From: Actinomycetota bacterium
GTDB taxonomy: Bacteria; Actinomycetota; Acidimicrobiia; Acidimicrobiales; Ilumatobacteraceae
Assembly (NCBI GenBank): GCA_005787035.1
Contig: SYCI01000074.1
Coordinates: 1-50,859, forward strand
Length of the DNA stretch: 50,859 nucleotides
Direction: 5' to 3'
This document shows positions 3,948-41,012 of the stretch, in pieces. Position 1 is the stretch's first letter. Each line of letters starts with the position of its first letter. The notes beneath the pieces are model-generated. The model did not search any database. It was not told where the DNA came from and was given only the letters and a program-made list of their open reading frames with translations. The position numbers were made by a program, and so were the translations under genes.

Positions 3948-3961
3948 TGACCGACCGATCA
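3948..3961 (-). promoter_or_regulatory. candidate TetR-type operator, site 1 (binding-protein promoter)
   Basis: Read on the minus strand the site is TGATCGGTCGGTCA, an imperfect palindrome, in the 123-bp gap upstream of the transporter operon. Twelve of 14 bases match the site at 40999-41012 beside the TetR gene, and the flanks AAG-site-GTT resemble the site at 33066-33079 as well. The assignment to that regulator is inference. Confidence 0.45.
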
Positions 3962-3997
3962 CTTACCAGGTCGGGGTTTCCACGGAGCAAAAACCGG

Positions 3998-4831
3998 TCA
4001 ACCGGGGCGGTCGGATTCGCGGTAATCGGCGAACTGAGCGTCCCGTTCGCTGAGGGCCGCCGTGACCCCCTTGGTGGCGAACGACTGCATGTATTCCATG
4101 GACGAACGCTGGTGGAACCCCAACGCCTGGATCTCGGCCGTGGCCCGGATGCCGGCCCGGATCCCCATGACCTCCATGGCCCGGTGAGCGGCCCGTTTGT
4201 TGAGGGCCAGTAGGTCAGCCGGGATCTTGGCCACGCGTTCGGCCATGGCCAGCACCTCGCGGTCGAGGTCGGCGACCGGGAAGGCCCGGTTGGCGAATCC
4301 GTTGGCCACCGCGTCGTCACCCGACATCGAATCGCCGGTCAGGAGAGCTTCCATGCCACGGCGCAGACCCATCATCCAGGTCTGCCACTGCATGTCGGGC
4401 GGCGACATGAGCCGAACCGGCGGGTAGCCGATCTTGGCATCGTGGGCCACGTACACGAGATCGCACGCGGTGGCGAGCTCGGTGCACCCGGCGAGGCAGT
4501 ACCCGTGAACCTGTCCGATGATCGGAGTGCTCATGTCCCACATTTCGAACCAGTTGTTCACGACGTGGCGCGACCACCAGCCGTCGGCCCGCGAGATCGC
4601 CCGCTCCACGTCGCTGTTGGCCGAGCCGAGGTCGTAGCCGGCCGAGAAGCACGAACCGGCGCCCCGGATGATCATGACCGAGACGTCCTTGTCCTTGTCC
4701 CCGGCCCGCAGCGCGTCGAACAAAGCCCCACGCAATGCGTCGTTGAGCGCGTTGCGCTTGTCGGGACGGTTGAGCGTGAAGCGCCGCACTTTCGGTGCGG
4801 GATCGTCGATGATCAGGACGGATTCGGACAT
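3998..4831 (-). CDS. enoyl-CoA hydratase/isomerase (crotonase) family protein
   Basis: This 277-residue crotonase-fold protein has the family N terminus (TLNRPDKRNALN), the oxyanion-hole segment SCFSAGYDL (about residues 60-68) and the second CoA-site segment YCLAGCTELATACDL (about 111-125). Glu118 matches the first catalytic glutamate of enoyl-CoA hydratase. The second glutamate, normally in a sequence like FGQPE, is absent: here it reads GYPPVR (135-140). Simple hydration of enoyl-CoA is therefore doubtful, and isomerase, hydrolase or lyase chemistry on a CoA thioester is possible. The ATG at 4831 overlaps the stop of the CoA ligase gene by one base (TGATG), which selects this start over an upstream in-frame one. 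The two proteins probably act on the same acyl-CoA. Confidence 0.85.
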   Translation of the reverse strand: MSESVLIIDDPAPKVRRFTLNRPDKRNALNDALRGALFDALRAGDKDKDVSVMIIRGAGSCFSAGYDLGSANSDVERAISRADGWWSRHVVNNWFEMWDMSTPIIGQVHGYCLAGCTELATACDLVYVAHDAKIGYPPVRLMSPPDMQWQTWMMGLRRGMEALLTGDSMSGDDAVANGFANRAFPVADLDREVLAMAERVAKIPADLLALNKRAAHRAMEVMGIRAGIRATAEIQALGFHQRSSMEYMQSFATKGVTAALSERDAQFADYRESDRPG

Positions 4832-6366
4832 CACTTCTCCCAGTACGGCGCGCGCAACTTGCGCTTGTTGATCTTGCCCATCGTGTTGCGTCCCAGATCG
4901 TCGACGAATTCGACGGTCCGCGGGCACTTGTAGTGCGACAGGTTCTCACGGCAGAACGCGATCAGGTCGGTGGCCGATGGCGCGGCGACTCCGTCGCGCA
5001 GAATCACCAGCGCTTTGAGTTCTTCGCCCATCTCGGTGTGCGGCACACCAATGCACGCCACGTCGAGAACCGCTGGATGTTTCACGAGAACCTGTTCGGC
5101 TTCGGCCGGATAGATGTTGACCCCGCCCGACACCACCATGTCGCTGAAGCGATCGGTGATGAACACGTAGCCGTCGGCGTCGACGTAGCCGATCTCCCCG
5201 AGCGTGAACACACCGGGGGCGATGTTGGCCGCTTTCGTCTTCTCGGGATCGTTCGGATAGATCACACCGCGACCGGTGGCGTCCTTGAAGAAGAGTCGCC
5301 CCTCGGTGTTGGGCGGAACTTCGTTCCCGTCGTCGTCGAGAACAATCACCGAGAACGGCGGCACCGGTCGGCCCACCGAACCCTGATGCTCCAGCCACTC
5401 CTGGCTCGTGATCTGACACGTGGTCCCGACCTCGGTTGCTCCGTAGGCATCGATGAAGATCGGCCCCCCCCATTCGATCATCGCCCGCTTCACGTCGACT
5501 GGACACGACGCCCCGGTGTGCGCGGCGAGTTTCATGCTCGACACGTCGTACTTGGCCTTCACCTCGTCGGGCAGAGCGAGCAACCGGACGAAATGGGTCG
5601 GCACCATCACCGACGACTCGGTCTTGTAGGTATGAATGGCGGCGAGGGTCTTCTCGGCGTCGAACTTGGCGAGCACGACCATGGGCACGCCGCGCACCAA
5701 TAGACGCATGCCGTTCAGCGGACCGGTGTGATACATCGGTCCGACCACGAGGTGGGTGCCGAACATGGCGAATCGGTTGGCCTTCATGCCTTCGAGGTGC
5801 TCGGCCATGGTGTCGCCACCGGCGAACATCGTGGGCGGTAATTCGGTGCCTTTCGGCCGACCCGTCGTTCCCGATGTGTAGAGAAGGTTGGCACGCGGTT
5901 TGACGTCGAGTGGCGGATCGCTCGGATCGCCGGCGGCCAGCCAGTCGCTCCACTTCGTCACTCCGGGCCGGTCGACTCCCCAACCCACGATGTCGATGGT
6001 GCGCCCTTCGGCGCGCACGATCGCCACGGCATCCAGACCGCGATCGACGGTCTCGGGACCCACGAACACGATGCGCGATTCGGAATCCGACAGGATGTAG
6101 GCCGTTTCCTCGGCCGTCAGGTGGAAGTTCACCGGCACGGTCGAGGCGCTACCGAGCAGACATCCGAGATGAGCCAGGGCGGTCTCGGCGGCGTTCTCGG
6201 CGAACACCGCCACGCGACGGTCCGGACCAAGATCGGCGTGAAGCGCGTTGTTGGCCGTGCGGTTGAGGATGTCGCCGACCTCGGCCCAGGTGAGGGCCTG
6301 GTCGGGGTCACGAACGGCGATCTCGTCGGGTCGTTCGCGCGCGAGTTCGGAAGCGAAAGCGGGCAC
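4831..6366 (-). CDS. AMP-dependent acyl-CoA synthetase (ANL superfamily)
   Basis: The 511-residue protein activates a carboxylic acid to its CoA thioester with ATP. Visible ANL motifs in order are the P-loop YTSGTTGRPKG, the adenine motif YGATEVG, the hinge region GEIGYVDADGYVFITDR, the NIYPAEAEQ motif, and near the C terminus GKINKRKLR with the catalytic lysine. Length and motifs fit FadD/short-to-medium-chain ligases. It lies between an NTF2-like gene 8 bp upstream and the crotonase gene, with which it overlaps by one base. Substrate is unknown; cyclic or aromatic acids are as likely as fatty acids in this setting. Confidence 0.92.
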   Translation of the reverse strand: MPAFASELARERPDEIAVRDPDQALTWAEVGDILNRTANNALHADLGPDRRVAVFAENAAETALAHLGCLLGSASTVPVNFHLTAEETAYILSDSESRIVFVGPETVDRGLDAVAIVRAEGRTIDIVGWGVDRPGVTKWSDWLAAGDPSDPPLDVKPRANLLYTSGTTGRPKGTELPPTMFAGGDTMAEHLEGMKANRFAMFGTHLVVGPMYHTGPLNGMRLLVRGVPMVVLAKFDAEKTLAAIHTYKTESSVMVPTHFVRLLALPDEVKAKYDVSSMKLAAHTGASCPVDVKRAMIEWGGPIFIDAYGATEVGTTCQITSQEWLEHQGSVGRPVPPFSVIVLDDDGNEVPPNTEGRLFFKDATGRGVIYPNDPEKTKAANIAPGVFTLGEIGYVDADGYVFITDRFSDMVVSGGVNIYPAEAEQVLVKHPAVLDVACIGVPHTEMGEELKALVILRDGVAAPSATDLIAFCRENLSHYKCPRTVEFVDDLGRNTMGKINKRKLRAPYWEK

Positions 6367-6374
6367 GGCGAACG

Positions 6375-6860
6375 TCAGACCTGAGGATGCGCGCCACGCG
6401 CGTCGAGTCCGGCTTTGGTGTTGGCGAACTCACCGGTGAGATCGGGGCCGCCTCGGTAGTGAACTTGGAGAAAGCGACGAGTGAACAACCACTGGCCGTT
6501 CACCTTGCGGTAGGCGTCGTCGTAGTGAGCGAGGAGTAGCCCGCGGTCGCCGTTGGCGGTGAGAAAGCGCTCGCTGATCGCCCAGCGACCCGTGGCCTCG
6601 TCACGAGATCCGTCCACGTAGGAGGCATCGCCGTTGTGAGCGTGCTGAACGACGGCCGCCATGCCACCCATGGCCGCGAACCACAACTTCAGGATGTTCT
6701 CCTTGCCCTCCACGAGTCGGCCACCACCGAGATCCCAAACGGCGTCGTCGGCCCAGCAACTCCCCCACTGATCGCCGTTGCGGTGGATCACCGCGTCCGC
6801 GTAGCGGTTGATCAGTCGCTGGATCTCGACGAAGTCCTGAGTGTCGACGGGAGAAGTCAT
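6375..6860 (-). CDS. SnoaL/NTF2-like protein 1
   Basis: The 161-residue protein has the short alpha+beta cone of the SnoaL-like/NTF2 superfamily: an N-terminal helix pattern FVEIQRLINRYADAV, then WADDAVWDLGG, a central helix KENILKLWFAAMGG, and late strands ending WLFTRRFLQVHYRG. Family members are dehydratases, isomerases, small hydroxylases or accessory proteins, usually for polycyclic substrates, so a specific reaction cannot be given. It heads the NTF2-CoA ligase-crotonase operon. The sequence TAGAAC followed by six bases precedes the ATG, a possible leaderless promoter. Confidence 0.82.
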   Translation of the reverse strand: MTSPVDTQDFVEIQRLINRYADAVIHRNGDQWGSCWADDAVWDLGGGRLVEGKENILKLWFAAMGGMAAVVQHAHNGDASYVDGSRDEATGRWAISERFLTANGDRGLLLAHYDDAYRKVNGQWLFTRRFLQVHYRGGPDLTGEFANTKAGLDARGAHPQV

Positions 6861-6929
6861 GGGAGAGTTCTAGTCCACTCGGGCGCTCGGGCGTGATGCC
6901 GGCGCCGCCGGGTGCGCCATGATGTTCCC

Positions 6930-8195
6930 GTGACCGCTCCCGGCGCCGACGACATCCGACTCGAATCGCTCACACTCCTCGACCCCGATGTCTCGGACTG
7001 CCCGTATGCGGCGTATCAGGCGCTTCGCGACGATGCTCCGGTGTGGCGCGACAACGCCACCGGGATGTTCGTCGTCACCCGCTACGAGGACGTGAAGTCG
7101 GTTCTGCTCGATACCGAGCGGTTCACGAGCGCCCGTCATCGTGGCCGGGTCGATCCGCGCTCGGCACGACTGCGGAAGATCTACGAAGACAAGGGTTGGG
7201 TTCCGGGCGCCACCCTCGCCAGCCGCGACGATCCCGAGCATCGCGAGATGCGCGGCCTCTTCAATCACGCGTTCCGTCCGGCCAAGATCAAGGAACTCGA
7301 TCCGTTCATCGAACGACTCGCCCACCGACTGATCGACGCCTTCATCGAGCGCGGTTCGTGCGACTGGGTCCGCGAGTTCGCCATTCCACTTCCGCTCATC
7401 GTGATCGGTCGCCAAATGGGCGCACCCGAAGAGGACATCTGGCAGATCAAGGCCTGGACCGACGCCTGGGTGCAGAGGCTCGGAATGATGCAGACCGAGG
7501 AAGAGGCGATTTGGTCCACCGAGCAGGAGATCGCCGCCCAGCACTACTTCCAGCCGATCTTCGAACGTCTTCGCGAGCAGCCCGACGACACATTGCTGTC
7601 GGACCTCGTGAACACCGTGATCCCCGAATGGGGTCGACCGCTCACCGACAACGAACTTCACGCCGAGATGATGGCCGACACATTCGTGGGCGGTTCGGAA
7701 ACCACGACCAATGCCCTCGCCGAAGGAATTCGGCTCCTGATCGACAATCCGTCCGAGTGGGCCAAGGTCAAGAACGATCCCGACACCTACGTTCCGCTGC
7801 TCGCCGAAGAAGTTCTACGACTCGAAGGACCCGTGCAGGGACTCTTCCGCACGGCCGCCGTCGACGTGGAGATGCACGGCGTGACGATTCCGGCCGGATC
7901 GGTCGTGAACGTCCGCTATGCGGCCGCTAACCGCGACGACCGCCAGTTCGAATGCCCGGCCGACATGAACCTCGATCGCGAGAACCTGCGATCGCACCTG
8001 GCCTTCGGATTCGGCACGCATCATTGCCTCGGGGCACCGCTCGCCCGTCGCGAACTCGTGATCGGATTCCGAGCCTTCGTCGATCGCGTCGACGAGATGT
8101 GGTTCGAACCCGAAGTCAACGACTTCCGTCATCACCCGAACTTCTGCCTACGAGCCCTGAAACAATTGCGCATCGGTTTCCGGCCGAGTCGCTAA
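6930..8195 (+). CDS. cytochrome P450 (actinobacterial, class I type)
   Basis: The soluble P450 is 421 residues from the GTG at 6930. It shows the I-helix oxygen-activation motif VGGSETTTN (about 253-261), the ExxR motif EEVLRLEGP (about 293-301) and the haem loop FGFGTHHCLGAPLARRE with the ligand Cys366. Such enzymes hydroxylate hydrophobic ring compounds using a ferredoxin and a reductase; neither is encoded in the window. It is divergent from the NTF2-like gene. An alternative GTG at 6912 adds six residues (MRHDVP). I prefer 6930 because the box CATGAT lies exactly six bases before it, the pattern seen at other starts here, but the choice is not firm. Confidence 0.93.
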   Translation: MTAPGADDIRLESLTLLDPDVSDCPYAAYQALRDDAPVWRDNATGMFVVTRYEDVKSVLLDTERFTSARHRGRVDPRSARLRKIYEDKGWVPGATLASRDDPEHREMRGLFNHAFRPAKIKELDPFIERLAHRLIDAFIERGSCDWVREFAIPLPLIVIGRQMGAPEEDIWQIKAWTDAWVQRLGMMQTEEEAIWSTEQEIAAQHYFQPIFERLREQPDDTLLSDLVNTVIPEWGRPLTDNELHAEMMADTFVGGSETTTNALAEGIRLLIDNPSEWAKVKNDPDTYVPLLAEEVLRLEGPVQGLFRTAAVDVEMHGVTIPAGSVVNVRYAAANRDDRQFECPADMNLDRENLRSHLAFGFGTHHCLGAPLARRELVIGFRAFVDRVDEMWFEPEVNDFRHHPNFCLRALKQLRIGFRPSR

Positions 8196-8210
8196 CCGCG
8201 GACGACGTCG

Positions 8211-8621
8211 TCAGCCGAGGGACTTCATGACGGCACCGCTGTCGTGATAGTCGACTTCGCGCACCACCTTGCCGTCCACGATGCGCAACCACGACATTCC
8301 TTCACTGCGCCACTTCTTGCCCACGTTGTGCGCACCGAACGACGCGGCCATCGACTCGGGAACGGTCGCCGACATGACCCAACTCAACGCCACGCCGTCA
8401 TCACTCGTCCAGAATTGTTCGGGCGCCAGAACGAGGTCTTTCCACACCTCGAGACCCCGGCCGAAGAACTGGCGAATCTTGGGCCAGCCCCGGTGCTCGC
8501 CGCCCACGATGTCGTAGAGAACCGCATCGGGGTGCAGGAATGCCGCCGGCGCATCGGCGTCGCCGCTGCTCCACGCTGCGAAGAGTCGGGTCGCCAATTC
8601 GATGTTGGAATCGTGAGCCAT
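8211..8621 (-). CDS. SnoaL/NTF2-like protein 2
   Basis: This 136-residue protein is a SnoaL-like/limonene-epoxide-hydrolase-like cone-fold protein: NIELATRLFAAWSSGD, then FLHPDAVLYDIVGGEHRGWPK and ending VVREVDYHDSGA. The start MAHDSN fits the family N terminus; the GTG eight codons upstream adds an unlikely extension. It converges on the P450 gene with 15 bp between stops, and it follows the kinase gene on the same strand with a gap of about 34 bp. Role unknown; ketosteroid-isomerase-like or hydrolase-like activity is possible. Confidence 0.8.
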   Translation of the reverse strand: MAHDSNIELATRLFAAWSSGDADAPAAFLHPDAVLYDIVGGEHRGWPKIRQFFGRGLEVWKDLVLAPEQFWTSDDGVALSWVMSATVPESMAASFGAHNVGKKWRSEGMSWLRIVDGKVVREVDYHDSGAVMKSLG

Positions 8622-8655
8622 GGCGCATTGTCGCACACCCGGCACGACGCCGAAA

Positions 8656-11957: not shown

Positions 11958-11963
11958 GCCCGC

Positions 11964-11969: not shown

Positions 11970-12031
11970 GAAGACGAAGTACGACCCGGAAATGGATAAG
12001 AATCCGATCCGACGACTTCCGGGGGGTAACG

Positions 12032-29925: not shown

Positions 29926-31371
29926 TCAGCCTTCGGGGACGAGGTACGGCTCGACGGCGTCGAGCGAACGACCGTCGGCGGTGAGGCCTTCGATGATCGT
30001 GTCGTCGATGTGTCGATGAATGAGCCGCATCCGCGCCTCTTGATAGAGCCCGAATTTGAGCCCCTTGGCCGCCCGCTTGGCGGTCATCTTCAGACCGAGC
30101 TGCACCTTGGGCAGGTTCTCCATGTCCTGTTCGAACACGGATGCCAAACCACCCATGCCCTCGGCCTCGTGCCACGACTGCTCCAGCCGGAGACGTTGGA
30201 TCGGCGCCGGTTGTGGTCGTTGCTGTCCGTCGGGCACCGGCATCATGCGGATGACATCCATGAAGCAGGTGTCGGGCGTCGGGCCCGGTCGCCAGCGATA
30301 CACGAGCGATTGTCCGATACCGGCCCACGGCGCGAAGGCGGGGAACAAGTGGTACAGGTGCGCGTCGAGCATCTCGGAGTCCGATGCGGTCGAAAGATCG
30401 ACGCCGAACATCGGTCCCATGAACGAACGGAACACCTCGGCCACGACTTCGCGCGCGCTCTTGCCGTCGGGGACCGCCACCGAACCGCGGGTCGATCGGG
30501 CCGAGAACTCGAGGTACGCATCGGCCACCTGTTGTTCGGTGAGATTGCCGAGATGCGGGCTCTGGATCCCGAAGCCGTTCACGAAACGGGTCACGAAAGG
30601 TGACTCGGGCCAGATCGAGTACTCGCTGTTGGCGTCGCCGGCGAACTCGAGGATCTGCGGATGGGTCGCGATGACGTGATACCCCTCGGCGAAGGCCTCC
30701 ATGCAGACCTTCCAGTTGGCCGGAACCTCCTTGACCGCGTGGAAGGCCTTGTAACGATTCTCCATCCGGAAATCGCGGTCGAAGTGTTCGACGAGTTTGC
30801 TGGCCACTTCGTTGAAAGGCGTGGCTTCAGGATCGAGATTCACGAAGACGAAACCGCACCACTCGGCCACCTGGGCCTGAGGCAGGCACGAGTCGGGCTG
30901 CTGCCACACCTGCGGGAAGTCCCATTCGGCCGGCAGTTCGGTGAGATTGCCGTCGAGGTCCCAGCGCCAACCGTGAAACGGGCAGCGGAACGAAGCGACG
31001 CGTCCGTCCTCGGTGCGCAACTTCGTACCGCGGTGCAGACACGAGTTGTGGTACGCCTTGATCGAGCCGTCACGCGTGCGAACCACGATCACCGATTGAT
31101 CGGCCACGTCGTACACGACGTGGTCGCCCACCTGCGCGAGTTCGTCGACCGTGCACGCCATCTGCCAGGTCTTGGTCCACATGTACTCGTTCTCGAGCGC
31201 CGCGAATTCGGCCGACGTGTAACGGATCTTCGGGACATCGACCTTGCCCTGCGGTACGTACGAGCTGTCGCGGAGCGACAACGGCACTTCGCGCGAGTCG
31301 GCGGCCAGGAGATCCTGGACGCTCGGTCCGTGGCTGCGTGCGGATCCGATCGAGTCGTCGATCGCAGTCAT
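29926..31371 (-). CDS. Rieske non-haem iron oxygenase alpha subunit 2
   Basis: The 481-residue protein carries the Rieske ligands Cys111-x-His113 and Cys130-x2-His133 (NSCLHRG and CPFHGW). The iron-site motif NWKVCMEAFAEGYHVIATH has His232 and His237. It is longer than the usual 430-460 residues and closely resembles the Rieske protein at 33091 in both domains. It lies between the twin CoA ligases, overlapping the upstream one by four bases (ATGA). The substrate is therefore probably an acid or acyl-CoA handled by those ligases. No dedicated reductase is encoded nearby. Confidence 0.93.
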   Translation of the reverse strand: MTAIDDSIGSARSHGPSVQDLLAADSREVPLSLRDSSYVPQGKVDVPKIRYTSAEFAALENEYMWTKTWQMACTVDELAQVGDHVVYDVADQSVIVVRTRDGSIKAYHNSCLHRGTKLRTEDGRVASFRCPFHGWRWDLDGNLTELPAEWDFPQVWQQPDSCLPQAQVAEWCGFVFVNLDPEATPFNEVASKLVEHFDRDFRMENRYKAFHAVKEVPANWKVCMEAFAEGYHVIATHPQILEFAGDANSEYSIWPESPFVTRFVNGFGIQSPHLGNLTEQQVADAYLEFSARSTRGSVAVPDGKSAREVVAEVFRSFMGPMFGVDLSTASDSEMLDAHLYHLFPAFAPWAGIGQSLVYRWRPGPTPDTCFMDVIRMMPVPDGQQRPQPAPIQRLRLEQSWHEAEGMGGLASVFEQDMENLPKVQLGLKMTAKRAAKGLKFGLYQEARMRLIHRHIDDTIIEGLTADGRSLDAVEPYLVPEG

Positions 31372-32999
31372 GACTTGCCTCCAGCGGATTCGAAGAGTTT
31401 GCGGGCGGTGACGTAGTCGGCCTTGCCGTTGGGTGCCCGCGGCACCGTGGCCACGAACACGAGTTCCTTGGGGACCTTGTAACTCGAGAGTTTGGTCTTC
31501 GTGTAGGCGATGACCTCGTCACTCGTCGGACTCTCGGATCCCGCGGCCACCGACGCCACGCCTACCACACGATTGCCGTACTTCTCGTCGGGCACTCCGA
31601 ACACGAGACAGTCGGCCACCGACTGGTGTGTCTTCACGGCTTCCTCGACTTCTTCGGGGAAGACCTTCTCCCCCGCGGTGTTGATGCAGTTCGATCCGCG
31701 TCCGAGAAGGTTGATGGTTCCGTCGGCCTCGACGGTCGCCATGTCGCCGGGGAACGAGTAGCGCACGCCGGCGATCTCCCGGAACGTACGCGCCGACTTC
31801 TCGGGATCCTTGTAGTAGCCGAGCGGAACGTTGGCTCCGCTCACCCCGACCATGCCCACCACACCCGATCCGGGCACGACTTCGGTGTCATCGGGTGCGA
31901 ACACCTTCGTGTTGGGCATGGCCCCGAACTTGGCGGTGGTGTTGACGTTGTCCTTGGTGGCCATCGTCTGGGCCATACCACCCTCGCTCGAGCCGAGGAT
32001 GTCCATCACGATCGCGCCGGGCATGTGTTCGAAGATGCCGGCCTTGATCTCGGCCGAGAACATGGCACCCGTCGAGACGATCGTCGTGACCGACGAGGCG
32101 TCGTAGGGGACGGTCGCGGCCTTCTCGCGCAGCGCGTTCATCATCGGACGGGCGAAGGCATCACCCACGATGACGAGTGAGCTCACGCGGTGCTTCTCGA
32201 TGGCGCGGAACATCTCGTGCGCATCGAACGAACGACCTTCCAGCAACACGACCTTGCCGGCCATCAGATGCGGCAGGAGTGCACCGAGCCAGACGCCGGT
32301 GCCGTGCATGAGTGGGCAGGCCGGAATCGCCACGGGTTGGCCGACCGCGGCGTGCATTCCTTTGGCGGTCGCCGCGATCTCGGCGACCGACGTGAAGGGC
32401 CCGCGACCCATGGGGCCGGTGTAGAACGCGAGGAAGCCCTCGGTGAACGTGCCCGTTGCGTACATGACTCCCTTGGGCATGCCGGTGGTGCCACCGGTGT
32501 AGAGCATGTAGAGATCGTCGACGGCTCGCTCCTGCCGAGGTGCCGGATCGTGGCTCGCGATCACGTCGTCCCACGCGCGCGCTCCGGGTACCGCTGCCGA
32601 AGGCCCGTCGGGGACCTCGATCAACAGACGCAACTTGGGCAACCGGTCCTTGATGCGACCGATACGGTCGCCGAGGCTCGCATGGAACACGACCGCTTCG
32701 CAGTCGGCGTTGTCGAGCAGGTACCAGAGTTCGTCGTCGAGGTACCGGTAGTTGACGTTGACCGGGGTGACCCGCGACTTGAACGCCGCGTACTGAGTGA
32801 TCAGGTACTCCGGGCTGTTGTACATGAACATGCCGACCTTGGAACCGACACCCATTCCGTGGGCCGCGTAGGCCCCGGCGAGACGGGCGGCCGTCTGGTC
32901 GTAGTCGGCCCAGGTCACGTCGCGGTCGCCGCACGAAACGGCCACCGCCTGCGGCATCGAGTCGGCATGAGCCTCGAAGATGTCAGCGAACGTCAACAC
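31368..32999 (-). CDS. AMP-dependent acyl-CoA synthetase 4 (twin of synthetase 3)
   Basis: This ligase is 543 residues from GTG 32999, chosen because AAGGGGGAG lies six bases before it; a further GTG at 33020 would overlap that ribosome site. Motifs are MLYTGGTTGMPKGVMYA, LGSSEGG, the hinge GDMATVEADGTINLLGRGS, CINTAGEKVFPEEVEE and GKADYVTARKLF. It heads the minus-strand operon ligase-Rieske-ligase and faces the Rieske gene at 33091 across a 91-bp divergent promoter region with a candidate operator. Confidence 0.92.
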   Translation of the reverse strand: MLTFADIFEAHADSMPQAVAVSCGDRDVTWADYDQTAARLAGAYAAHGMGVGSKVGMFMYNSPEYLITQYAAFKSRVTPVNVNYRYLDDELWYLLDNADCEAVVFHASLGDRIGRIKDRLPKLRLLIEVPDGPSAAVPGARAWDDVIASHDPAPRQERAVDDLYMLYTGGTTGMPKGVMYATGTFTEGFLAFYTGPMGRGPFTSVAEIAATAKGMHAAVGQPVAIPACPLMHGTGVWLGALLPHLMAGKVVLLEGRSFDAHEMFRAIEKHRVSSLVIVGDAFARPMMNALREKAATVPYDASSVTTIVSTGAMFSAEIKAGIFEHMPGAIVMDILGSSEGGMAQTMATKDNVNTTAKFGAMPNTKVFAPDDTEVVPGSGVVGMVGVSGANVPLGYYKDPEKSARTFREIAGVRYSFPGDMATVEADGTINLLGRGSNCINTAGEKVFPEEVEEAVKTHQSVADCLVFGVPDEKYGNRVVGVASVAAGSESPTSDEVIAYTKTKLSSYKVPKELVFVATVPRAPNGKADYVTARKLFESAGGKS

Positions 33000-33065
33000 G
33001 GTCGTCTCCCCCTTTTTCACTGGCGTGTGTCCCCGAGCCGAGCGTAGTTCGGTGCTGGACGAAAG

Positions 33066-33079
33066 TGATCACCGAGTCA
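33066..33079 (+). promoter_or_regulatory. candidate TetR-type operator, site 2 (Rieske 3 / CoA ligase 4 divergent promoter)
   Basis: TGATCACCGAGTCA matches the outer bases of sites at 3948 and 40999 (TGATC-N5-GTCA, preceded by AAG as at site 1). The match is 9 of 14 to either site, weaker than those two to each other. It ends at the -10 box AATAAT, as the site at 40999 sits just upstream of its own -10 box. Confidence 0.35.
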
Positions 33080-33084
33080 ATAAT
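33079..33084 (+). promoter_or_regulatory. -10 box of probable leaderless promoter (Rieske 3)
   Basis: AATAAT, then GAAGCC, then the ATG at 33091. No ribosome site is visible before this start. Confidence 0.4.
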
Positions 33085-33090
33085 GAAGCC

Positions 33091-34455
33091 ATGACGGCTC
33101 TCGACCCCCGACCGGCCCGGTCCCCCGGTGTCACGTATCAGGAACTCCTCGACACCGACACCCATCCGGTACCCGACGTCCTGCGCCTCGAGTCGCCGCG
33201 GTTCCTCGGCGACGACGACATCCCCATCGACCGCTACATCTCTCGCGAGTGGCACGAACTCGAGCGTGAGCGGCTCTGGATGCGCGTCTGGCAGTTCGCT
33301 TGCCGGGAGGAACAGATCCCCGGACCGGGCGACCACGTGGTCTACGAGATCAGCAACCTCTCGTTCATCGTGATGCGCCAGGCGGACGGCTCGATCAAGG
33401 CCTTCCCCAACGCGTGTCTGCATCGTGGACGTCGGCTCAAGGATTACGACGGCCACTGTTCGGAGATCCGCTGCCCGTTCCATGGTTTCGCGTGGGCGCT
33501 CGACGGCCAACTCGCCGACGTGCCGGCCGGCTGGGACTTCCCGCACGTCGACGAACGTCGCCACGAGGACTTCATGCTCCCCGAGTGTCAAGTGGGCATC
33601 TGGGCCGGATTCGTGTTCATCAATCCCGACCCGGATTGCGAACCGTTCTCCGATTTCATACGCGGTCTCGACGAGCAGTTCGAAGTCTGGAACCTCGCCG
33701 ACCGCTACATCGAGGCCCACGTCACCAAGATCATCGGGGCCAACTGGAAGATCGCGCAGGAGGCGTTCTGCGAGGCGTACCACGTGAACGCCACTCACCC
33801 GCAGATCCTCTATTACCTCGGCGACACCAATTCGCAGGTCGACATCTGGGACAACTTCTCGCGGGTGATCACCCCGGCGTGCACACCGAGTCCGCTGCTC
33901 TGGTACGAGGTCTCCGAGGACGAGATGATGAAGTCGATGCTCGACGTTCGCGTCGATCAGGAGAGCCCGATCTCGATACCGGCTGGTGCATCGGCGCGGG
34001 CGATCGGTGCCGCCGGTGCGCGTGAGCGCTGGCGCCCGGTGGTCGGCGCTCATGTCGACCAGATGAGCGACGCGGAATTCATGGACAGCATCGACTACAC
34101 GGTGTTCCCGAACTTTCATCCGTGGGGCGCGTTCAACCGCATCGTCTACCGCTTCCGCCCGAACGGCGACGATCATCGCTCGTCGATCATGGAAGTCATG
34201 TTCCTCGCCCCCTTCAAAGGTGAGCGTCCGGCTCCGGCCGAACGCCGCGATCTCCGGATCGACCAACCATGGACCGACGCCCCCGAACTCGGCATGCTCG
34301 CCAAAGTCTTCGATCAGGACGTCTTCAACATGTCCAAGGTCCAACTCGGACTCGAGACCACGTTCAAACCCGGCATCACACTGGCGAACTACCAGGAGGC
34401 CAAGGTCCGCTGGTTGCACCAGAAGTTCGGCGAGTGGATGGAAGGTGACCGGTGA
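33091..34455 (+). CDS. Rieske non-haem iron oxygenase alpha subunit 3
   Basis: The 454-residue protein has Rieske ligands Cys109-x-His111 and Cys128-x2-His131 (NACLHRG, CPFHGFAW). The catalytic iron motif is NWKIAQEAFCEAYHVNATH with the two His ligands in YHVNATH. It is strongly similar to the Rieske protein at 29926 (shared HVVY, DGSIKA and CLHRG segments). The start MTALDP is the only one compatible with the divergent promoter. It overlaps the following 71-residue gene (TGATG), then a ThuA-like gene, so the three are co-translated. Confidence 0.93.
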   Translation: MTALDPRPARSPGVTYQELLDTDTHPVPDVLRLESPRFLGDDDIPIDRYISREWHELERERLWMRVWQFACREEQIPGPGDHVVYEISNLSFIVMRQADGSIKAFPNACLHRGRRLKDYDGHCSEIRCPFHGFAWALDGQLADVPAGWDFPHVDERRHEDFMLPECQVGIWAGFVFINPDPDCEPFSDFIRGLDEQFEVWNLADRYIEAHVTKIIGANWKIAQEAFCEAYHVNATHPQILYYLGDTNSQVDIWDNFSRVITPACTPSPLLWYEVSEDEMMKSMLDVRVDQESPISIPAGASARAIGAAGARERWRPVVGAHVDQMSDAEFMDSIDYTVFPNFHPWGAFNRIVYRFRPNGDDHRSSIMEVMFLAPFKGERPAPAERRDLRIDQPWTDAPELGMLAKVFDQDVFNMSKVQLGLETTFKPGITLANYQEAKVRWLHQKFGEWMEGDR

Positions 34456-35446: not shown

Positions 35447-36079
35447 TCAGGTCCAGGTGTCCCAGCGGATGAACTTCTCCGCGGGCACCCGCTTGGCAAT
35501 CTTGAAGTCGGTTCCGATGGTGTAGGCCACCGGGAACAAACCGGCCTGGGTGTACTGATCGAACGGAATACCGAGGAGGTCGGCGGCTTCCTTCTCGTTC
35601 GGGAGATGCAACGTGGTCCAGGCCGAACCGAGACCACGCTCGCGGAGCGCGAGCATGAAACTCCACACGGCGGGCAACAGCGAACCCCATGCCGACGCCT
35701 GCCCGAAGGCCGGTGTGCCGGTGTCGAGGCGACCGGCGATCAGCGGAATGAGAAGAACCGGAACCTGATCGAGAACGTCGGCGAGGTACGTGGCCGAGTC
35801 GAGGATCCGCTCACCCTGATCGTCACGCTTGGGCCGATTGGGATCGTTGATGTACGGATAGAAGTTGGCCCGGTACATGTCGGCCAGAGCCTTCTTCTTG
35901 ACCGGATCCTCCACGAACAGCCAACGCCAGCCCTGCATGTTCGAGCCAGTGGGCGCCTGATGCGCGATCTCGACGCACTCGACGAGCACGTCGTGCGGAA
36001 CCGGCTTGGTGAGGTCGAGTCGCTTGCGTACCGAACGTGTCGTGGTGAGCACTTCGTCGGCGGTCAGTCCCAGTTTCAT
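35447..36079 (-). CDS. nitroreductase-family flavoprotein
   Basis: The 210-residue protein has the FMN-binding start TTRSVRKRLDLTKPVPHDVL, QAPTGSNMQGWRWLFVED and a late GLGSAWTTLHLPNEKEAADLLGIP, all typical of nitroreductase/BluB-like FMN proteins. Family members reduce nitro groups, quinones, enones or enamides using NAD(P)H. GGGAGAGAG precedes the ATG at 36079; the GTG one codon upstream is less likely. It follows the PNPOx-like gene by 12 bp. Confidence 0.9.
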   Translation of the reverse strand: MKLGLTADEVLTTTRSVRKRLDLTKPVPHDVLVECVEIAHQAPTGSNMQGWRWLFVEDPVKKKALADMYRANFYPYINDPNRPKRDDQGERILDSATYLADVLDQVPVLLIPLIAGRLDTGTPAFGQASAWGSLLPAVWSFMLALRERGLGSAWTTLHLPNEKEAADLLGIPFDQYTQAGLFPVAYTIGTDFKIAKRVPAEKFIRWDTWT

Positions 36080-36091
36080 CACTCTCTCCCG

Positions 36092-36613
36092 TCACTCGGC
36101 CGAACTGGCTCGAGACTTCATCCACTCGGTGGTGGCTTGCCCCATCTTGGTCCCGTCGTAGCCGATTCGCTGGGTCGGAACCACTTTCAGGATCACCCGA
36201 CGCGGTGAATCCAGGAAATCCCGGAAGGCCTCGGCGCGTTTGCCCTTGCCGCCCATGATGGCCTCGGCCAAAGCCGGGTAGAACCAGTCCTTGGTCGCTT
36301 GGTCGTCGAGAATTTCGCACGTGCCCTTCCAGGTGACGGTCATGTTGCGCGGCAGGGACGTGCCGGTGGAGGTCACGACCACGCACACACGCGGGTCGCG
36401 GCGGACCGCCGAGATCCGAGCTCGCTGCGAAGAAGCCGTCAACCAGAAACAACCGTCGTGCCACACGTACGACATGATCACTCCGACCGGCCAACCCTCC
36501 TTGTTCGACCAGATGAACGTGCATTCGTTGTGCGCAAGAAGGAGACGCTCCTCCATGTCGTCGTCGAGTCCGTAGACGGTGACGTCTTCGTAGTTCTCGG
36601 GATGTTCGGCCAT
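36092..36613 (-). CDS. pyridoxamine 5'-phosphate oxidase-like (FMN/F420-binding split-barrel) protein
   Basis: The 173-residue protein has the split-barrel pattern: LLLAHNECTFIWSNKEGWPVGVIMSYVWHDGCFWLTAS, then ARISAVRRDPRVCVVVTS and a late RVILKVVPTQRIGYDG. In Actinobacteria such proteins bind F420 or FMN and reduce unsaturated or quinone-like substrates. The ATG at 36613 has AGAAGGA before it; the four-codon longer start lacks a site. Paired with the nitroreductase, it suggests a flavin/deazaflavin reductive step. Confidence 0.85.
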   Translation of the reverse strand: MAEHPENYEDVTVYGLDDDMEERLLLAHNECTFIWSNKEGWPVGVIMSYVWHDGCFWLTASSQRARISAVRRDPRVCVVVTSTGTSLPRNMTVTWKGTCEILDDQATKDWFYPALAEAIMGGKGKRAEAFRDFLDSPRRVILKVVPTQRIGYDGTKMGQATTEWMKSRASSAE

Positions 36614-36647
36614 GGTCCTTCTCACTCTCTCTTCGGTTCGTTCGCGA

Positions 36648-37415
36648 TCAGCGTTCGGAAATCTCGCGGGGGGTGAACTGCCCCGTGTTGGCGGTGATGC
36701 CGCCGTCCACGGGCACCACGGCGCCGGTCACGAAACTCGCCTCGGCCGAGGCGAAGAACTCGATCACCGCCGCGACTTCGTCGGCCCGACCCCAGCGTTG
36801 CAGCGGGATCGCCCGGCGCAACGACTCGTATACGGCCGGCACCGCGCTCAGTCCCTTGGTCATGCCCGTCTCGGTGGGTCCGGGGCACACGACGTTCACG
36901 TTGATCCGGTCGGCGCCGAGATCGAGCGCGGCTCCCCGTGCGAGGTTGATGGCCGCGGCCTTGGCCGTGTTGTACGGCCACATGTTGGGGTCGGCTCCGA
37001 TTCCCGATGTCGACGCCGTGACCACGATGCGTCCACCGCCGCGACGGCGCAGCGCCGGGACCGCGGCACGTATTCCGAGTAGGACTCCACGAACATTGAC
37101 CTCGAGTGTGCGATCGAAAACTTCGAGGGGCATCTCCACGATGTCGCCACTCGCCGGCACTCCGGCGTTCAACACGATCGCATCGAGTCCGCCGAAGACG
37201 TCCTCGGCGCGGTGCACGGCATCGGAGTTCGTCGATTCGTCAGTCACGTCCCCGGGTACTACTTCGACCACACCCGGGCGCGCGAGCGATTCCAGCGCAT
37301 CGCCGGCCCGATCGACGGCTACGACTCTTTCACCGCGTGAGCTCAGACGTTCGACCACCGCCCGGCCGATACCCGACGCAGCGCCGGTGACGATCGTGAC
37401 GCGCGTCGAGTTCAT
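36648..37415 (-). CDS. short-chain dehydrogenase/reductase (SDR) 5
   Basis: The 255-residue SDR has TGAASGIGRAVVERL, VLNAGVPASG and the catalytic pair in PYNTAKAAAINL, preceded by TASTSG. A TAGGTT box directly precedes the ATG with a six-base spacer, and its TAG is the stop codon of the P450 gene upstream. SDR 5 may therefore have a leaderless promoter in addition to read-through from the P450. Confidence 0.92.
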   Translation of the reverse strand: MNSTRVTIVTGAASGIGRAVVERLSSRGERVVAVDRAGDALESLARPGVVEVVPGDVTDESTNSDAVHRAEDVFGGLDAIVLNAGVPASGDIVEMPLEVFDRTLEVNVRGVLLGIRAAVPALRRRGGGRIVVTASTSGIGADPNMWPYNTAKAAAINLARGAALDLGADRINVNVVCPGPTETGMTKGLSAVPAVYESLRRAIPLQRWGRADEVAAVIEFFASAEASFVTGAVVPVDGGITANTGQFTPREISER

Positions 37416-37421
37416 GACGAG

Positions 37422-37427
37422 AACCTA
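37422..37427 (-). promoter_or_regulatory. -10 box overlapping the P450 stop codon (SDR 5 promoter)
   Basis: TAGGTT on the minus strand, then CTCGTC, then the ATG at 37415. The first three bases are the P450 gene's TAG stop. Confidence 0.45.
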
Positions 37428-38642
37428 CGACCTCGACACCGCGTCGATCGGGTCCGGACGGCGCACCTTCCAGCGAATCGGAAGGGTCGTGAGTCCGCGG
37501 AGAATGAACGGCTCGTTGACGGCGACCGGACCCACGAGTTCGATCTCGGCGAAAGTGTCGACCATGAGTCGCAGCGCCAATTGCGCCTCACGTCGGGCGA
37601 GCGCGTTTCCGATGCAGTGGTGGACTCCCCACCCGAAGGCCAGATGCGGACGCGATCCGGGCGTGAATCGATCGAGTCGGATGCGGTGGGGGTCCTCCCA
37701 CACGTCGGTGTCACGGTTGGCCGCCGCGAAGAGCAATTGCACCTTGGTGCGCTCGTTCAGATCGTGATCGCCGAGTGGACACGCGTCGCGATTGGTTCGG
37801 AACAGACCCTGAACCGGTGAATCGAAACGCAGGAACTCCTCGACGGCGAGCGGTATTAGGCCGGGATCACGACGGATCGCGTCCGCCAACGACGGATCCT
37901 GAATCAACCGGTACAGCATGAGTCCGATCAGACTCGCCGTCGTCTCGTGACCGGCCACCAGAACCTGCTGGGCGAGTTGACGGACTTCCCCGTACGAGAG
38001 CTCACCGGCCCGATGGGCTCGGGTCAGCACCGACACCAGGTCGTCGGGTGGCTCGCGACCGGCGTCGAGCGCGGCCGTGCGTTCGGCAACCAGTCCGTCG
38101 ACGATCGAATAGATCCCTTCGTTGGCGCGCTCCACGAGTCGAAGGTCGCCGCCACCGAGACCGTTGACGATGTCGTCGGACCACTCGCCGAACCGTTCCC
38201 GATCGGACGCGTGTACACCCAACATCTCGGCGATCACATCGGCCGGAAAGGGGAACGCGAAGAGTCGCACGAAGTCGCCTTCACCGTCGCGCGAAAAGTT
38301 TTCGTTCCACATGCGGCGACCGATCTCTTCGACCCGGGGTGCGAGCGATGCGATGGCCGCCGGACGGAACCCGTCCTGCAGAACCTTGCGCTGGCGACGA
38401 TGATCGGGATCGTCAGCAGCACCGAGAACTCCGCCGTTCTGTACGAAGATCCCCGGTCCGTCCCCGTTCAGCCATTGCTCGGGTTCGAGAAGCATCTGCA
38501 GGACATCGGCGTGCTTGCTCACCACGAAGAACGGCGGAGAGACCGACTCCTCCCGGTGAACGGGACACTCCTCGAGCAGACGCCGGTGGCCGATCGATGG
38601 TTCGAGATCGTTGGCGTGGGCCAGATGCGAGTAGCGCTCCAC
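37425..38642 (-). CDS. cytochrome P450 2
   Basis: The 405-residue P450 shows the I-helix motif VAGHETTASL (about 229-238), the ExxR motif EEFLRFDSPVQGLFRTNR (Glu269, Arg272) and the haem loop FGWGVHHCIGNALARRE with Cys343. The GTG start lies 16 bp after the stop of SDR 6. With the adjacent SDRs it could hydroxylate a ring or side chain whose alcohol is then oxidised. It shares the SPVQGLFRT segment with the first P450, suggesting related substrates. No redox partner is seen. Confidence 0.94.
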   Translation of the reverse strand: MERYSHLAHANDLEPSIGHRRLLEECPVHREESVSPPFFVVSKHADVLQMLLEPEQWLNGDGPGIFVQNGGVLGAADDPDHRRQRKVLQDGFRPAAIASLAPRVEEIGRRMWNENFSRDGEGDFVRLFAFPFPADVIAEMLGVHASDRERFGEWSDDIVNGLGGGDLRLVERANEGIYSIVDGLVAERTAALDAGREPPDDLVSVLTRAHRAGELSYGEVRQLAQQVLVAGHETTASLIGLMLYRLIQDPSLADAIRRDPGLIPLAVEEFLRFDSPVQGLFRTNRDACPLGDHDLNERTKVQLLFAAANRDTDVWEDPHRIRLDRFTPGSRPHLAFGWGVHHCIGNALARREAQLALRLMVDTFAEIELVGPVAVNEPFILRGLTTLPIRWKVRRPDPIDAVSRS

Positions 38643-38658
38643 GGATCGGGTGTCGGGG

Positions 38659-39441
38659 TCAGTACGGGAGGGTGCCGCCGTCGACCGGGAACAGACAGCC
38701 CGTCATGTTGCGGGCGGCATCGGATGCCAGCAACACCGCGACCGCGGCGACCTCTTCCACGCGATTGGGTCGCTTGATCGACGATTCACTGCAGAACATC
38801 TCGATGAGTGCCTCGTACGAACCGACACCCATGGCCTGGGCCGAAGCCGGACCCGTTTCGCGCACGATGTCGGTCTCGATGATCCCCGGCAGGATCGCGT
38901 TCACCGTGATCCCGAGTGTGCCGACCTCGTGGGCCGCCGACTTCACGAGTCCGTTGACCGCGTGTTTGGTCGCGACGTAGCCCGGAAGTCCGGGCTTGCC
39001 GAGTTTGCCCTCCACCGAGGACGTCACGATGACGCGCCCCGCCTGGCGCGGGATCATGTGTTGCAGCGCGCGGCGCATACCCCAGAAGACGTGGTTCAGG
39101 TTCCAGTCGATCTCGAGGTTCCATTCCTCATCGCTCATCATCGAAACCGGCGCCGTGGCTTGCACACCACCCGAGTTCAGACAGCAGATGTCGAGATGCC
39201 CGAATTTCTCGATCGTGAAGTCGATGAGACCTTCCACGACCGATTGCTTGGCGGCGTCCCCCGGGAAGAACGCGGCCCGTGCGCCGGCGTTCATCTCGGC
39301 CAGACAACGTTCGCCCTTCACCGGGTCGCGTCCGTTGACCACCACCGTGGCCCCCTCGGCGATGAAGGCCTCGGCCATGGCCCGACCGATGCTCCGGGTT
39401 CCGCCGGTGATACAGGCCACTTTTCCTTCGAGCTTGCCCAT
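38659..39441 (-). CDS. short-chain dehydrogenase/reductase (SDR) 6
   Basis: The 260-residue SDR has ITGGTRSIGRAMAEAF, NGRDPVKGERCL, LNSGGVQ in place of the usual NNAG, and the catalytic pair in GYVATKHAVNG. It is very similar to the next gene (SDR 7): shared GGTR-IG, VVNGRDP/VINGRDP, SSVEGK-GKPG and YVA-KHAVNGL. Tandem duplication is likely. Both probably oxidise related ring alcohols or reduce related ketones. Confidence 0.92.
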   Translation of the reverse strand: MGKLEGKVACITGGTRSIGRAMAEAFIAEGATVVVNGRDPVKGERCLAEMNAGARAAFFPGDAAKQSVVEGLIDFTIEKFGHLDICCLNSGGVQATAPVSMMSDEEWNLEIDWNLNHVFWGMRRALQHMIPRQAGRVIVTSSVEGKLGKPGLPGYVATKHAVNGLVKSAAHEVGTLGITVNAILPGIIETDIVRETGPASAQAMGVGSYEALIEMFCSESSIKRPNRVEEVAAVAVLLASDAARNMTGCLFPVDGGTLPY

Positions 39442-39469
39442 CAGGATCTCCTCTCCACTCGGTGGTACT

Positions 39470-40249
39470 TCAGTAAGGCGACGTTCCGCCGTCGATCGAA
39501 ATCAGTGAACCCGTGATACCGCCACCGATCTCCGAAGCGAGGAGTACCGCGACGTTGGCGACGTCCTCGACCTCGTTGATGCGTTTGATCGCCGAGTCGG
39601 CGGCGAAGGTTGCGAGCAGCTGGTCGTACGTGAGGCCCATGGCCGCCGCCGCACCCGCGCCTCCCTCTTTCACGATGTCGGTCTCGATCACCCCGGGACA
39701 CACCGCATTCACGGTGATACCGAGCGGTCCGACCTCCTTGGCGGCCGACTTCGTGAGTCCGTTGACCGCGTGTTTGGCGGCCACGTAGGTCGACATGCCG
39801 GGTTTACCGGCCTTGCCTTCCACCGACGACACGTTGATGACCCGTCCGTATCCCTGCGGGATCATGTACTTGAAGGCGCGCCGCATGACCCAGAGCGTGT
39901 GCCACAGGTTCCACTTGATCGCGTCGTCCATGGCTTCGTCGGTGAGTTCGGCGACCGGCGCGAATCCAGCGGCGCCGCCCGCGTTGGCGACCAGGATGTC
40001 GATTCGTCCGAAACGTTCGACGGTCCCGTCGACCACCGCTTCGCAGTCTTCGCGCTTCTTCACGTCGCCGGCGATGAAGTGGGCTCGATCACCAGCGTTC
40101 AGTTCGGCGAGCGATTGGGCGGCCTTGGCCGGATCACGTCCGTTGATCACCACCCGGGCTCCTTCGTCGAGGAATGCCTTGGCGATCGCCAAGCCGATAC
40201 CGCGGGTTCCGCCCGTCACACACGCGACTCGTCCGTCCAACGTTCCCAT
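39470..40249 (-). CDS. short-chain dehydrogenase/reductase (SDR) 7, tandem paralogue of SDR 6
   Basis: The 259-residue SDR has VTGGTRGIGLAIAKAF, VANAGGAAG and the catalytic pair in YVAAKHAVNGLTKS. A GAGGGGG ribosome site precedes the ATG. It lies 28 bp upstream of SDR 6 and 51 bp downstream of the TetR gene on the same strand, so the regulator may be co-transcribed with it or terminate in the GC-rich gap. Confidence 0.92.
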   Translation of the reverse strand: MGTLDGRVACVTGGTRGIGLAIAKAFLDEGARVVINGRDPAKAAQSLAELNAGDRAHFIAGDVKKREDCEAVVDGTVERFGRIDILVANAGGAAGFAPVAELTDEAMDDAIKWNLWHTLWVMRRAFKYMIPQGYGRVINVSSVEGKAGKPGMSTYVAAKHAVNGLTKSAAKEVGPLGITVNAVCPGVIETDIVKEGGAGAAAAMGLTYDQLLATFAADSAIKRINEVEDVANVAVLLASEIGGGITGSLISIDGGTSPY

Positions 40250-40300
40250 CCGACACCCCCTCGTCGGCGGGCCCCCGCCCGCGGGCGAGAGCGTAGACGC

Positions 40301-40933
40301 TCAGCGAGGGTCGGCGAGGAGGGATCCGCGCAATGCCGACTTGGCCGCCGCGATGGCCGTTCGGTGGTGGCGCAGGTCGTCGGAGGCCACATCGGTCAGG
40401 CCGGCGAGCGTGGTGAGTAGGAACGAGAGCACCATCGATCGGTGCGACCGGGCCACGTCGCCGGCGGCCACGGCCTCCTCCACCAGTTCCACCACGAACT
40501 TCTGGGTCGGCAGTTGGGCCTCGTCGAGGGCGACACGCATCTCGGGGTGGCGGCGAGCGTCGATGCGGACCGCCCCCAGAAAACGCGCGTACGACGGATC
40601 TTCGCCATTCAGGACGTGTGCCGCGTCGAGGACCGCGTCGAAGCGCTCCAGGAAATTGGCCCGACCGGAGACGGCGTCGTTGAAGCGGGTCGACACGAGA
40701 CTTTGCGCGTCCTCCAGGACGGCGACGTAGAGATCGGCCTTGGATGGGAAGTAGTGATAGAGCGCAGCCGGCGTGACCCCGGCCTGATTGGCGATGTCGC
40801 GGTTGGTCGTGACCTCGTAACCGTGGACGGCGAAGGTCTCCCGGGCGATGGCGAGGATCCGACGGCGGGTCTCGGCCGAGTCGGTTGCCGGCGGACGGCC
40901 GAGTTTGCGAGGTTTCTTGGCGGCCCGCGGCAT
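40301..40933 (-). CDS. TetR-family transcriptional regulator
   Basis: The 210-residue protein has a basic N terminus (PRAAKKPRKLGRPP), then a TetR helix-turn-helix: RRRILAIARETFAVHGYEVT, IANQAGVTPAALYHYFPSKADLYVAV (about residues 25-70). The C-terminal helical domain is a ligand pocket. It is divergent from the acyl-CoA dehydrogenase gene across 93 bp. The operator-like site at 40999-41012 is in that gap. CATACT with a six-base spacer precedes the ATG at 40933. By position it probably represses its neighbours and is released by an acyl-CoA or pathway metabolite. Confidence 0.94.
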   Translation of the reverse strand: MPRAAKKPRKLGRPPATDSAETRRRILAIARETFAVHGYEVTTNRDIANQAGVTPAALYHYFPSKADLYVAVLEDAQSLVSTRFNDAVSGRANFLERFDAVLDAAHVLNGEDPSYARFLGAVRIDARRHPEMRVALDEAQLPTQKFVVELVEEAVAAGDVARSHRSMVLSFLLTTLAGLTDVASDDLRHHRTAIAAAKSALRGSLLADPR

Positions 40934-40998
40934 ACGACGAGTATGGCGAGGCACGCCCCCGCCGAACGGGTCGAGCGATCGGGGCACGGTTGCCTTAC

Positions 40999-41012
40999 TG
41001 ATCGGATGGTCA
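40999..41012 (+). promoter_or_regulatory. candidate TetR-type operator, site 3 (acyl-CoA dehydrogenase promoter)
   Basis: TGATCGGATGGTCA is an imperfect palindrome between a TTGCCT -35 (40990-40995) and the TACGGT -10 (41015-41020), where a repressor would block polymerase. It differs from site 1 only in the two central bases. Confidence 0.5.

Follow-up and report, generated by a model that had tools for sequence, protein, structure and literature searches.

The DNA analyzed here is a 50,859-nucleotide (nt) stretch of contig SYCI01000074.1 (assembly GCA_005787035.1) from an uncultured actinobacterium of the family Ilumatobacteraceae; the whole stretch is called the window below. It encodes a TetR-family regulator, and a palindromic, operator-like sequence (a dyad) recurs in three of its promoter regions. 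The first-pass annotation had noticed this sequence in 14-bp form. Its positions and strands were correct for all three sites, the differences between sites 1 and 3 are confined to the two centre bases, and the AAG flank is common to sites 1 and 2. The sites, the regulator gene and the genes next to the sites are as follows.

3946..3963, minus strand: site 1, operator dyad AGTGATCGGTCGGTCAGT, in the importer promoter; an exact 18-bp match.
33064..33081, plus strand: site 2, operator dyad AGTGATCACCGAGTCAAT, in the divergent promoter of Rieske oxygenase 3 and a ligase, overlapping the -10 box AATAAT.
40997..41014, plus strand: site 3, operator dyad ACTGATCGGATGGTCAAT, in the gap between the TetR and acyl-CoA dehydrogenase genes.
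40301..40933, minus strand: TetR-family regulator, 210 amino acids from ATG 40933 (the called open reading frame [ORF] runs to 40987).
40940..40945, minus strand: predicted -10-like box CATACT of TetR, 6 nt before its ATG; similar boxes precede many ortholog starts.
41015..41020, plus strand: predicted -10-like box TACGGT of the dehydrogenase, 6 nt before GTG 41027, from sequence and alignment.
41027..42301, plus strand: acyl-CoA dehydrogenase with three Acyl-CoA_dh domains, first gene of the operon beside TetR.
33091..34455, plus strand: Rieske oxygenase 3 (Rieske and Ring_hydroxyl_A domains), predicted target of site 2, with orthologs in relatives; probably leaderless.
31368..32999, minus strand: acyl-CoA ligase (AMP-binding; NF005863 above cut-off), divergent from Rieske 3 and a possible second target of site 2.
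2492..3874, minus strand: importer binding protein (Peripla_BP_6; lipoprotein by its N-terminus), predicted target of site 1.
116..2335, minus strand: importer permease (BPD_transp_2), probably in the same operon as the binding protein.

All three sites are intergenic, as the first-pass annotation had held, given the likely true starts rather than the longest ORFs. The starts chosen were GTG 3874 (importer), GTG 32999 (ligase), ATG 33091 (Rieske 3), ATG 40933 (TetR) and GTG 41027 (dehydrogenase). They are our reading; longest-ORF gene calls place sites 2 and 3 within over-long ORFs. The annotation's remark that two of the three sites lie within two bases of a -10-like box also holds. Site 3 ends 2 bases from TACGGT (41015-41020), site 2 shares one base with AATAAT (33079-33084), and site 1 is 8 bases upstream of the importer's TAGAAA box. 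The dyad thus adjoins or overlaps -10 boxes and is therefore placed where a repressor would exclude RNA polymerase. A -10-like box stands exactly 6 nt 5' of the start codon in TetR, the dehydrogenase and Rieske 3 (40934-40945, 41015-41026 and 33079-33090). Because of this gap, the transcripts of the dehydrogenase and Rieske 3 are probably leaderless, and the TetR start is probably leaderless too, judging from the same spacing.

Taken as 14-mers, the sites carry little weight. The 14-mer TGATCGGNNGGTCA with two mismatches is found in the window 8 times against 8.95 expected, which is chance level, and its exact form has four copies in the window's assembly (G000; 2.19 Mb, 166 contigs, 77.5% complete), the other two lying within coding frames. 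The consensus TGATC-N5-GTCA is found five times in the window (0.63 expected), and since two of the five (29833 and 31059) are coding, it is not discriminating alone. The 14-mer was rejected as a scanning tool, and the claim therefore had to be tested in relatives. Their sequences indicate that the operator is an 18-bp dyad, ABTRAYC-N4-GRTYAVT, and not a 14-mer; the three 14-bp sites belong to it.

An 18-column matrix was built from the TetR/dehydrogenase and Rieske 3 promoters of relatives, with no letters from the window. It scored sites 3, 2 and 1 at 25.5, 20.3 and 19.3 bits, the top three matches of the window, and the next match reached 14.2 bits. When 30 first-order random windows were scanned with the same matrix, one best match scored 21.8 bits and the next 17.5 bits. 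The relatives' sites were chosen via the short anchors GTAATTGA and GTCAATAATG, so that conservation of the right half is partly selected; the left half was selected only for TRA (Rieske 3) and TGAT (TetR) when the matrices were made. Sites 1 to 3 also kept ranks 1 to 3 with symmetric matrices from six promoter classes from which the TetR/dehydrogenase, Rieske 3 or importer class was omitted, and site 1 was first under every one of these matrices. Importer and WhiB sites were entered by hand for this purpose, and loci L015 and L018 were excluded.

The exact 18-bp pattern has 94 matches in 24 congeneric genomes (1 to 7 per genome), compared with 6 for the reversed pattern. The window's own assembly holds 7, and about 0.37 would be expected from a second-order simulation (one match per 6 Mb). 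With our starts, six of these seven are intergenic, and two of the six, on contigs C54 and C158, probably represent a single locus that was assembled twice. Site 2 itself deviates from the exact pattern. Loose genome scans and a 16-bp one-sided pattern were discarded, having yielded many extra matches; among those inspected, L172, L174, L175, L180 and L181 look coding by sequence, although L174, L175 and L181 are intergenic according to the automatic gene calls.

Relatives that share the TetR gene keep the dyad at two of the promoters, as the regulon proposed in the first-pass annotation would require. Site 3 is retained in 17 of 18 congeneric TetR orthologs (e.g., TGATCG-NN-CGATCA, then ATTAC), and the site 2 dyad, followed by AATG, stands upstream of Rieske 3 in all 17 relatives with a readable start. 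Column identity at site 3 is 0.91 in the left half, 0.54 in the spacer, 0.95 in the right half and 0.62 in the 60 bases upstream (19 rows); the corresponding values at site 2 are 0.91, 0.64, 0.96 and 0.54 (18 rows). The alignment rows were picked by anchor letters within the right halves, the left halves containing none, and row L023, which anchored at a second, unrelated place, was kept. Two genomes of another family, G028 and G041, have a TetR ortholog and near-dyads of 20.0 and 23.6 bits, respectively, in the TetR/dehydrogenase gap. G041 has a further exact dyad before the short-chain dehydrogenase/reductase (SDR) gene adjoining the dehydrogenase and another next to a PNPOx-like gene, a type that the window has as well; G028 has an exact dyad at the same place beyond the dehydrogenase. 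At L176 (G003:C9) and L177 (G002:C290), the Rieske 3 operator lies beside a ligase, which was identified by Pfam in G003 and by sequence in G002, and the best Rieske 3 match is only 41%. Another gene seems to have replaced Rieske 3 there.

That three promoter regions are similar by chance would agree with the chance-level frequency of the mismatched 14-mer and the coding location of the other two exact copies. It conflicts with the recovery of the sites when one class is left out, the conservation in diverged relatives and the 94 matches against 6 in the control, and we regard it as highly improbable. It is hard to hold for sites 2 and 3, and for site 1 it would require that the dyads at the importers of G011, G012, G019 and G001 be functionless.

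Among the matches listed (19 genomes, G008 in part; G010, G021, G016, G006 and G004, with 19 of the 94 matches, were left out), 62 of 75 were assigned by hand to six promoters: TetR/dehydrogenase, Rieske 3 (or its place), the importer, a phosphoenolpyruvate (PEP)-utiliser operon, a divergent cytochrome P450 (P450)/molybdo-oxidoreductase pair and WhiB. Seven of the 13 others were inspected; six are coding by automatic calls and one, L287, is intergenic. At 16 of 20 fetched loci, at least one P450-flanking dyad lies beside an orthologous P450 and/or PEP-utiliser gene (tblastn), the other four having been fetched as unassigned matches. The proposal that matrix and pattern scans of the genome and its relatives would cluster at catabolic promoters, with few coding matches at the same score, was thus borne out, and the regulon appears wider than first thought, with the PEP-utiliser operon, the P450/molybdo-oxidoreductase pair and WhiB as additional predicted members.

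The P450/molybdo promoter has a 24-bp perfect or near-perfect dyad in 10 relatives, an example of the extended form being CAAACTAATC-N4-GATTAGTTTG. P450 and PEP genes lie about 10 kb from the importer on the same contig in several relatives (e.g., G019:C1, sites 688582 and 698514), and contig C129 in the window's assembly is therefore the probable continuation of the island immediately past the window's left edge. On C129 (L166:5010-14380), PEP-utiliser, luciferase-like, P450, SDR, molybdo-oxidoreductase and limonene-epoxide-hydrolase-like genes surround two operators. The window's assembly has the WhiB promoter dyad (C54 and C158), and slightly altered forms of it stand in G019, G001 and G011. 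The two copies in the assembly (L167:532-549 and L168:6842-6859) are near-identical and close to contig ends; they are probably one locus assembled from two strains.

The shared sequence might instead be a promoter element read by a sigma factor. In its favour, the sites are next to -10 boxes, and sites 2 and 3 share GTCAATWA. This explanation does not fit a dyad that is perfect over up to 24 bp, with both halves conserved around a free spacer. Moreover, the distance to the -10 box varies from a one-base overlap to 8 bases, and a genome has no more than 1 to 7 exact matches. We give a sigma-factor element hardly any credence.

The regulator was sought among the TetR-type genes of relatives. 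G019 and G003 have 35 TetR_N matches, 30 of them with loci. Scanned with a matrix lacking the TetR/dehydrogenase class, only the two orthologs of the window's TetR carry a dyad above 20 bits within approximately 1.5 kb, and the next locus reached 15.2 bits. G019 has 17 TetR_N matches, and the ortholog is the only one within 670-745 kb of its contig C1, the 75 kb read around the island; the next match on C1, at 756 kb, has a best dyad score of 12.1 bits. The scan also covered 18 further genomes of the order, one of them from the same family. Sixteen lack a clear ortholog and together contain 5 matches, two of them intergenic, while G028 and G041, which have the ortholog, hold 1 and 3. The link also survives a change of neighbours, because in an Ilumatobacter metagenome-assembled genome (L196), where TetR is the last gene of a SnoaL-SDR-TetR operon (the SDR named by sequence), a 22.9-bit dyad stands before the operon.

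Among approximately 69 loci of distant homologs (L197-L265), five have TRAYC-N4-GRTYA at the TetR start, all of them among the seven loci from Rhodococcus or Nocardia (27-36% identity); this count was made after the Rhodococcus matches had been noticed. A record labelled Deltaproteobacteria (L203:2867-2886) has a 34% TetR homolog with GTAATTGACCGGCCAATAAATT upstream. On this evidence, the adjacent TetR is the best candidate regulator.

The TetR_N helix-turn-helix of the window's protein is clear (PF00440, E value 9.4e-17, 61 bits, cut-off 24). Its AlphaFold2 model shows an ordinary TetR fold, all-helical with ten helices and a C-terminal ligand domain, and has a predicted local distance difference test (pLDDT) score of 87.6; the 50 Foldseek matches listed are TetR-type regulators, to judge from their titles. 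Clear orthologs (47-58% identity) are present in 18 of 23 other congeneric genomes, and a palindromic dyad near its own gene, as is usual in the TetR family, accompanies 17 of these 18. Assignment to the KstR, FasR, MftR or FadR equivalogs was rejected, as their NCBIfam scores are far under the cut-offs (40/280, 43.6/330, 35.4/224.9 and 29.6/200, respectively); the best NCBIfam score is 62 bits, for the ScbR family (cut-off 150). The KstR2 sequence match (1.6e-12) ranks behind UidR (6.6e-21). The FadR chains of 3whb and 3whc are among the better structural matches to the model, with template modeling (TM) scores of 0.68-0.75, and 3whc FadR holds stearoyl-CoA. This likeness of fold is a weak hint that the ligand may be an acyl-CoA.

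Site 1 is, by sequence comparison, the least conserved of the three and may be younger or more easily lost. The importer loci examined were L046-L062, found by homology, and L173. In G019, the importer permease is followed by two ABC ATPases. The importer site of G019 and G001 reads ACTAACC-N4-GGTTACT, not the TGATC type, and that of G012, which precedes a more diverged binding protein, is ATTGATCGAACGATCAGT. The importer promoter position thus keeps a dyad and changes its half-site type. A 16.4-bit match at importer locus L059 was rejected, since it lies behind the gene and resembles a terminator hairpin.

Such differences in half-site type could mean that there are two regulators, one for the TGATC/GGTCAAT sites (TetR/dehydrogenase, Rieske 3 and WhiB) and another for the ACTAAYC sites (P450/molybdo and PEP), or that a regulator encoded elsewhere reads them all. 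In the relatives, P450/molybdo sites are purely TAA (20/20 half-sites) and TetR/dehydrogenase sites purely TGA (34/34), which speaks for two readers. On the other side, 16 of 17 Rieske 3 sites and 4 of 16 PEP sites are mixed, and the importer type differs among close relatives. The two types, TAA and TGA, thus swap within the importer, PEP and Rieske 3 promoters, and one reader is therefore favoured. The 75 kb read in G019 contains no TetR match besides the ortholog, the other 28 TetR loci stay below 16 bits, and genomes of the order without a clear TetR ortholog have few dyads. Two regulators, or one other than the adjacent TetR, are an unlikely explanation in our estimate.

Several observations weigh against a single regulator encoded by the adjacent TetR gene, and two of them favour the two-regulator alternative. 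The first of these two is that matrices from P450/molybdo or PEP sites only, which rank site 1 first, rank site 2 low (51st and 57th, respectively) and site 3 6th and 2nd. The second is that a TetR ortholog was not found in five congeneric genomes (G006, G011, G016, G018 and G020), four of which carry the Rieske site; genome incompleteness predicts approximately 4.6 absences in the congeneric set. With the full matrix, site 2 scores lowest of the three, and without its own class it leads the next window match by only 0.4 bits (12.9 vs 12.5). Among 18 importer loci, 13 lack the dyad and five carry it (the window, G011, G019, G001 and G012); the G012 locus was found via the dyad, and homology alone gives 4 of 17. 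Site 3, in the TetR/dehydrogenase gap, lacks its left half in G013 and carries a single change in G007, and no dyad was found near the TetR ortholog of L194 (49% identity). The two intergenic matches among the five in the ortholog-free genomes of the order must be set beside the 3 matches of the reversed control in all 18. Finally, site 3 sits on the dehydrogenase promoter and does not overlap TetR's own predicted -10-like box; the two are 51 bp apart, and TetR may or may not control its own transcription.

Our computations establish the dyad, its conservation, its positions and its link to this TetR lineage. We think it very probable that a single regulator, most likely the TetR repressor of 40301-40933, uses the three sites as its operators; binding, repression, the ligand and the operon extents are what we infer from these data. 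One regulator linking the importer, Rieske 3 and the dehydrogenase operon, as first suggested, is supported by the scans, the clustering and the conservation. A TetR dimer would read the 18-bp dyad, A-B-T-R-A-Y-C followed by four free bases and the mirror image. Bound on or just upstream of the -10 box, it would exclude RNA polymerase and so repress approximately six promoters: dehydrogenase/2-oxoacid dehydrogenase, Rieske 3 (perhaps with the divergent ligase operon), importer, PEP-utiliser, P450/molybdo and WhiB, the last of these lying outside the island. TetR would be released by a metabolite of the pathway, perhaps an acyl-CoA.

Downstream of the dehydrogenase, further genes lie in the same direction (42386..48360, plus strand; Pfam) and may form a single transcript with it. 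They are as follows.

42386-43141, plus strand: SDR (Pfam).
43149-43919, plus strand: ThuA (Pfam).
Between ThuA and E2, plus strand: 2-oxoacid dehydrogenase E1 alpha and E1 beta and a NAD-kinase-like ORF (Pfam).
46891-48360, plus strand: E2 (Pfam).

The SDR/ThuA gap contains ACTGATC-N4-GATGAGT (43137-43154), and another family has a full dyad before its SDR gene. This window match was not taken as a site, as it straddles the 7-bp gap and its right half is broken. Naming the substrate of the pathway was also tried. Limonene-epoxide-hydrolase-like, RPE65-like, ChsH2-like and thiolase genes point to a terpenoid- or steroid-like compound and are not decisive.

KstR, KstR2, FasR and FadR are TetR repressors tied to steroid or fatty-acid acyl-CoA, and the window's TetR shares their fold and, in its predicted form, their kind of regulon. 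A further comparison is with Rhodococcus TetR genes (L207 and L209) beside a KshA-like Rieske oxygenase and an SDR. Here, the operator-like TTGATC-N4-GATCAA, with the same spacing as in the window, occurs at the TetR/SDR gap and near two IclR-type gene starts (L207:652, 1390 and 2945; L209:606, 1371 and 2940). The Rhodococcus TetR has 33% identity to that of the window over 151 residues, and its target genes differ.

Divergent pairs of a TetR gene and an enzyme gene that flank a palindromic operator are a standard arrangement, as surveys in Streptomyces and mycobacteria show (PMC3511530 and PMC4482099). The window resembles the surveyed cases in its palindromic operator and in a divergent gap of less than 200 bp (here 93 bp), and differs in a predicted regulon spanning several island promoters and in an operator placed on the target promoter rather than on the -10-like box of TetR. 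The mycobacterial BkaR is likewise a TetR repressor beside acyl-CoA metabolism genes, with one palindrome at several nearby promoters. Its core, GTTA-N-T-N4-A-N-TAAC, differs from ABTRAYC-N4-GRTYAVT, and its promoter region has two motif copies (PMC3920632). In a sterol-using Mycobacterium, motif X of an Rv0767c-type TetR precedes P450, SDR and other catabolic operons and occurs near the gene of that TetR, as here. The motif is published as a figure, and the likeness noted here is one of gene context (PMC6593523); a further source describes Rv0767c sites as rich in GAC and GTC (PMC10312376). Of the systems compared, BkaR and the motif X regulator come closest in kind. PMC13273656 concerns an IclR regulator without bearing on this regulon. 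A literature search of titles and abstract starts, with most subscription papers outside its scope, found no study treating this regulon. Judged by its predicted binding sites, the regulon would be new but of a well-known type, in which a TetR-type repressor controls a catabolic island.

More tentatively, and less likely than not, one TetR-type repressor with two interchangeable half-site types might govern an island of very roughly 55-65 kb for a terpenoid- or steroid-like substrate together with a distant WhiB-type regulator, so that uncultured Ilumatobacteraceae would have a two-tier switch. The Rhodococcus TetR genes next to KshA-like oxygenases, with their matching operator architecture, would then mark an old regulator lineage of polycyclic-compound breakdown. 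For a large catabolic island of uncultured actinobacteria, the analysis provides an operator sequence, a candidate regulator and a predicted list of targets. The target list indicates which enzymes probably share one pathway, and the regulator could act as a sensor for finding its substrate.

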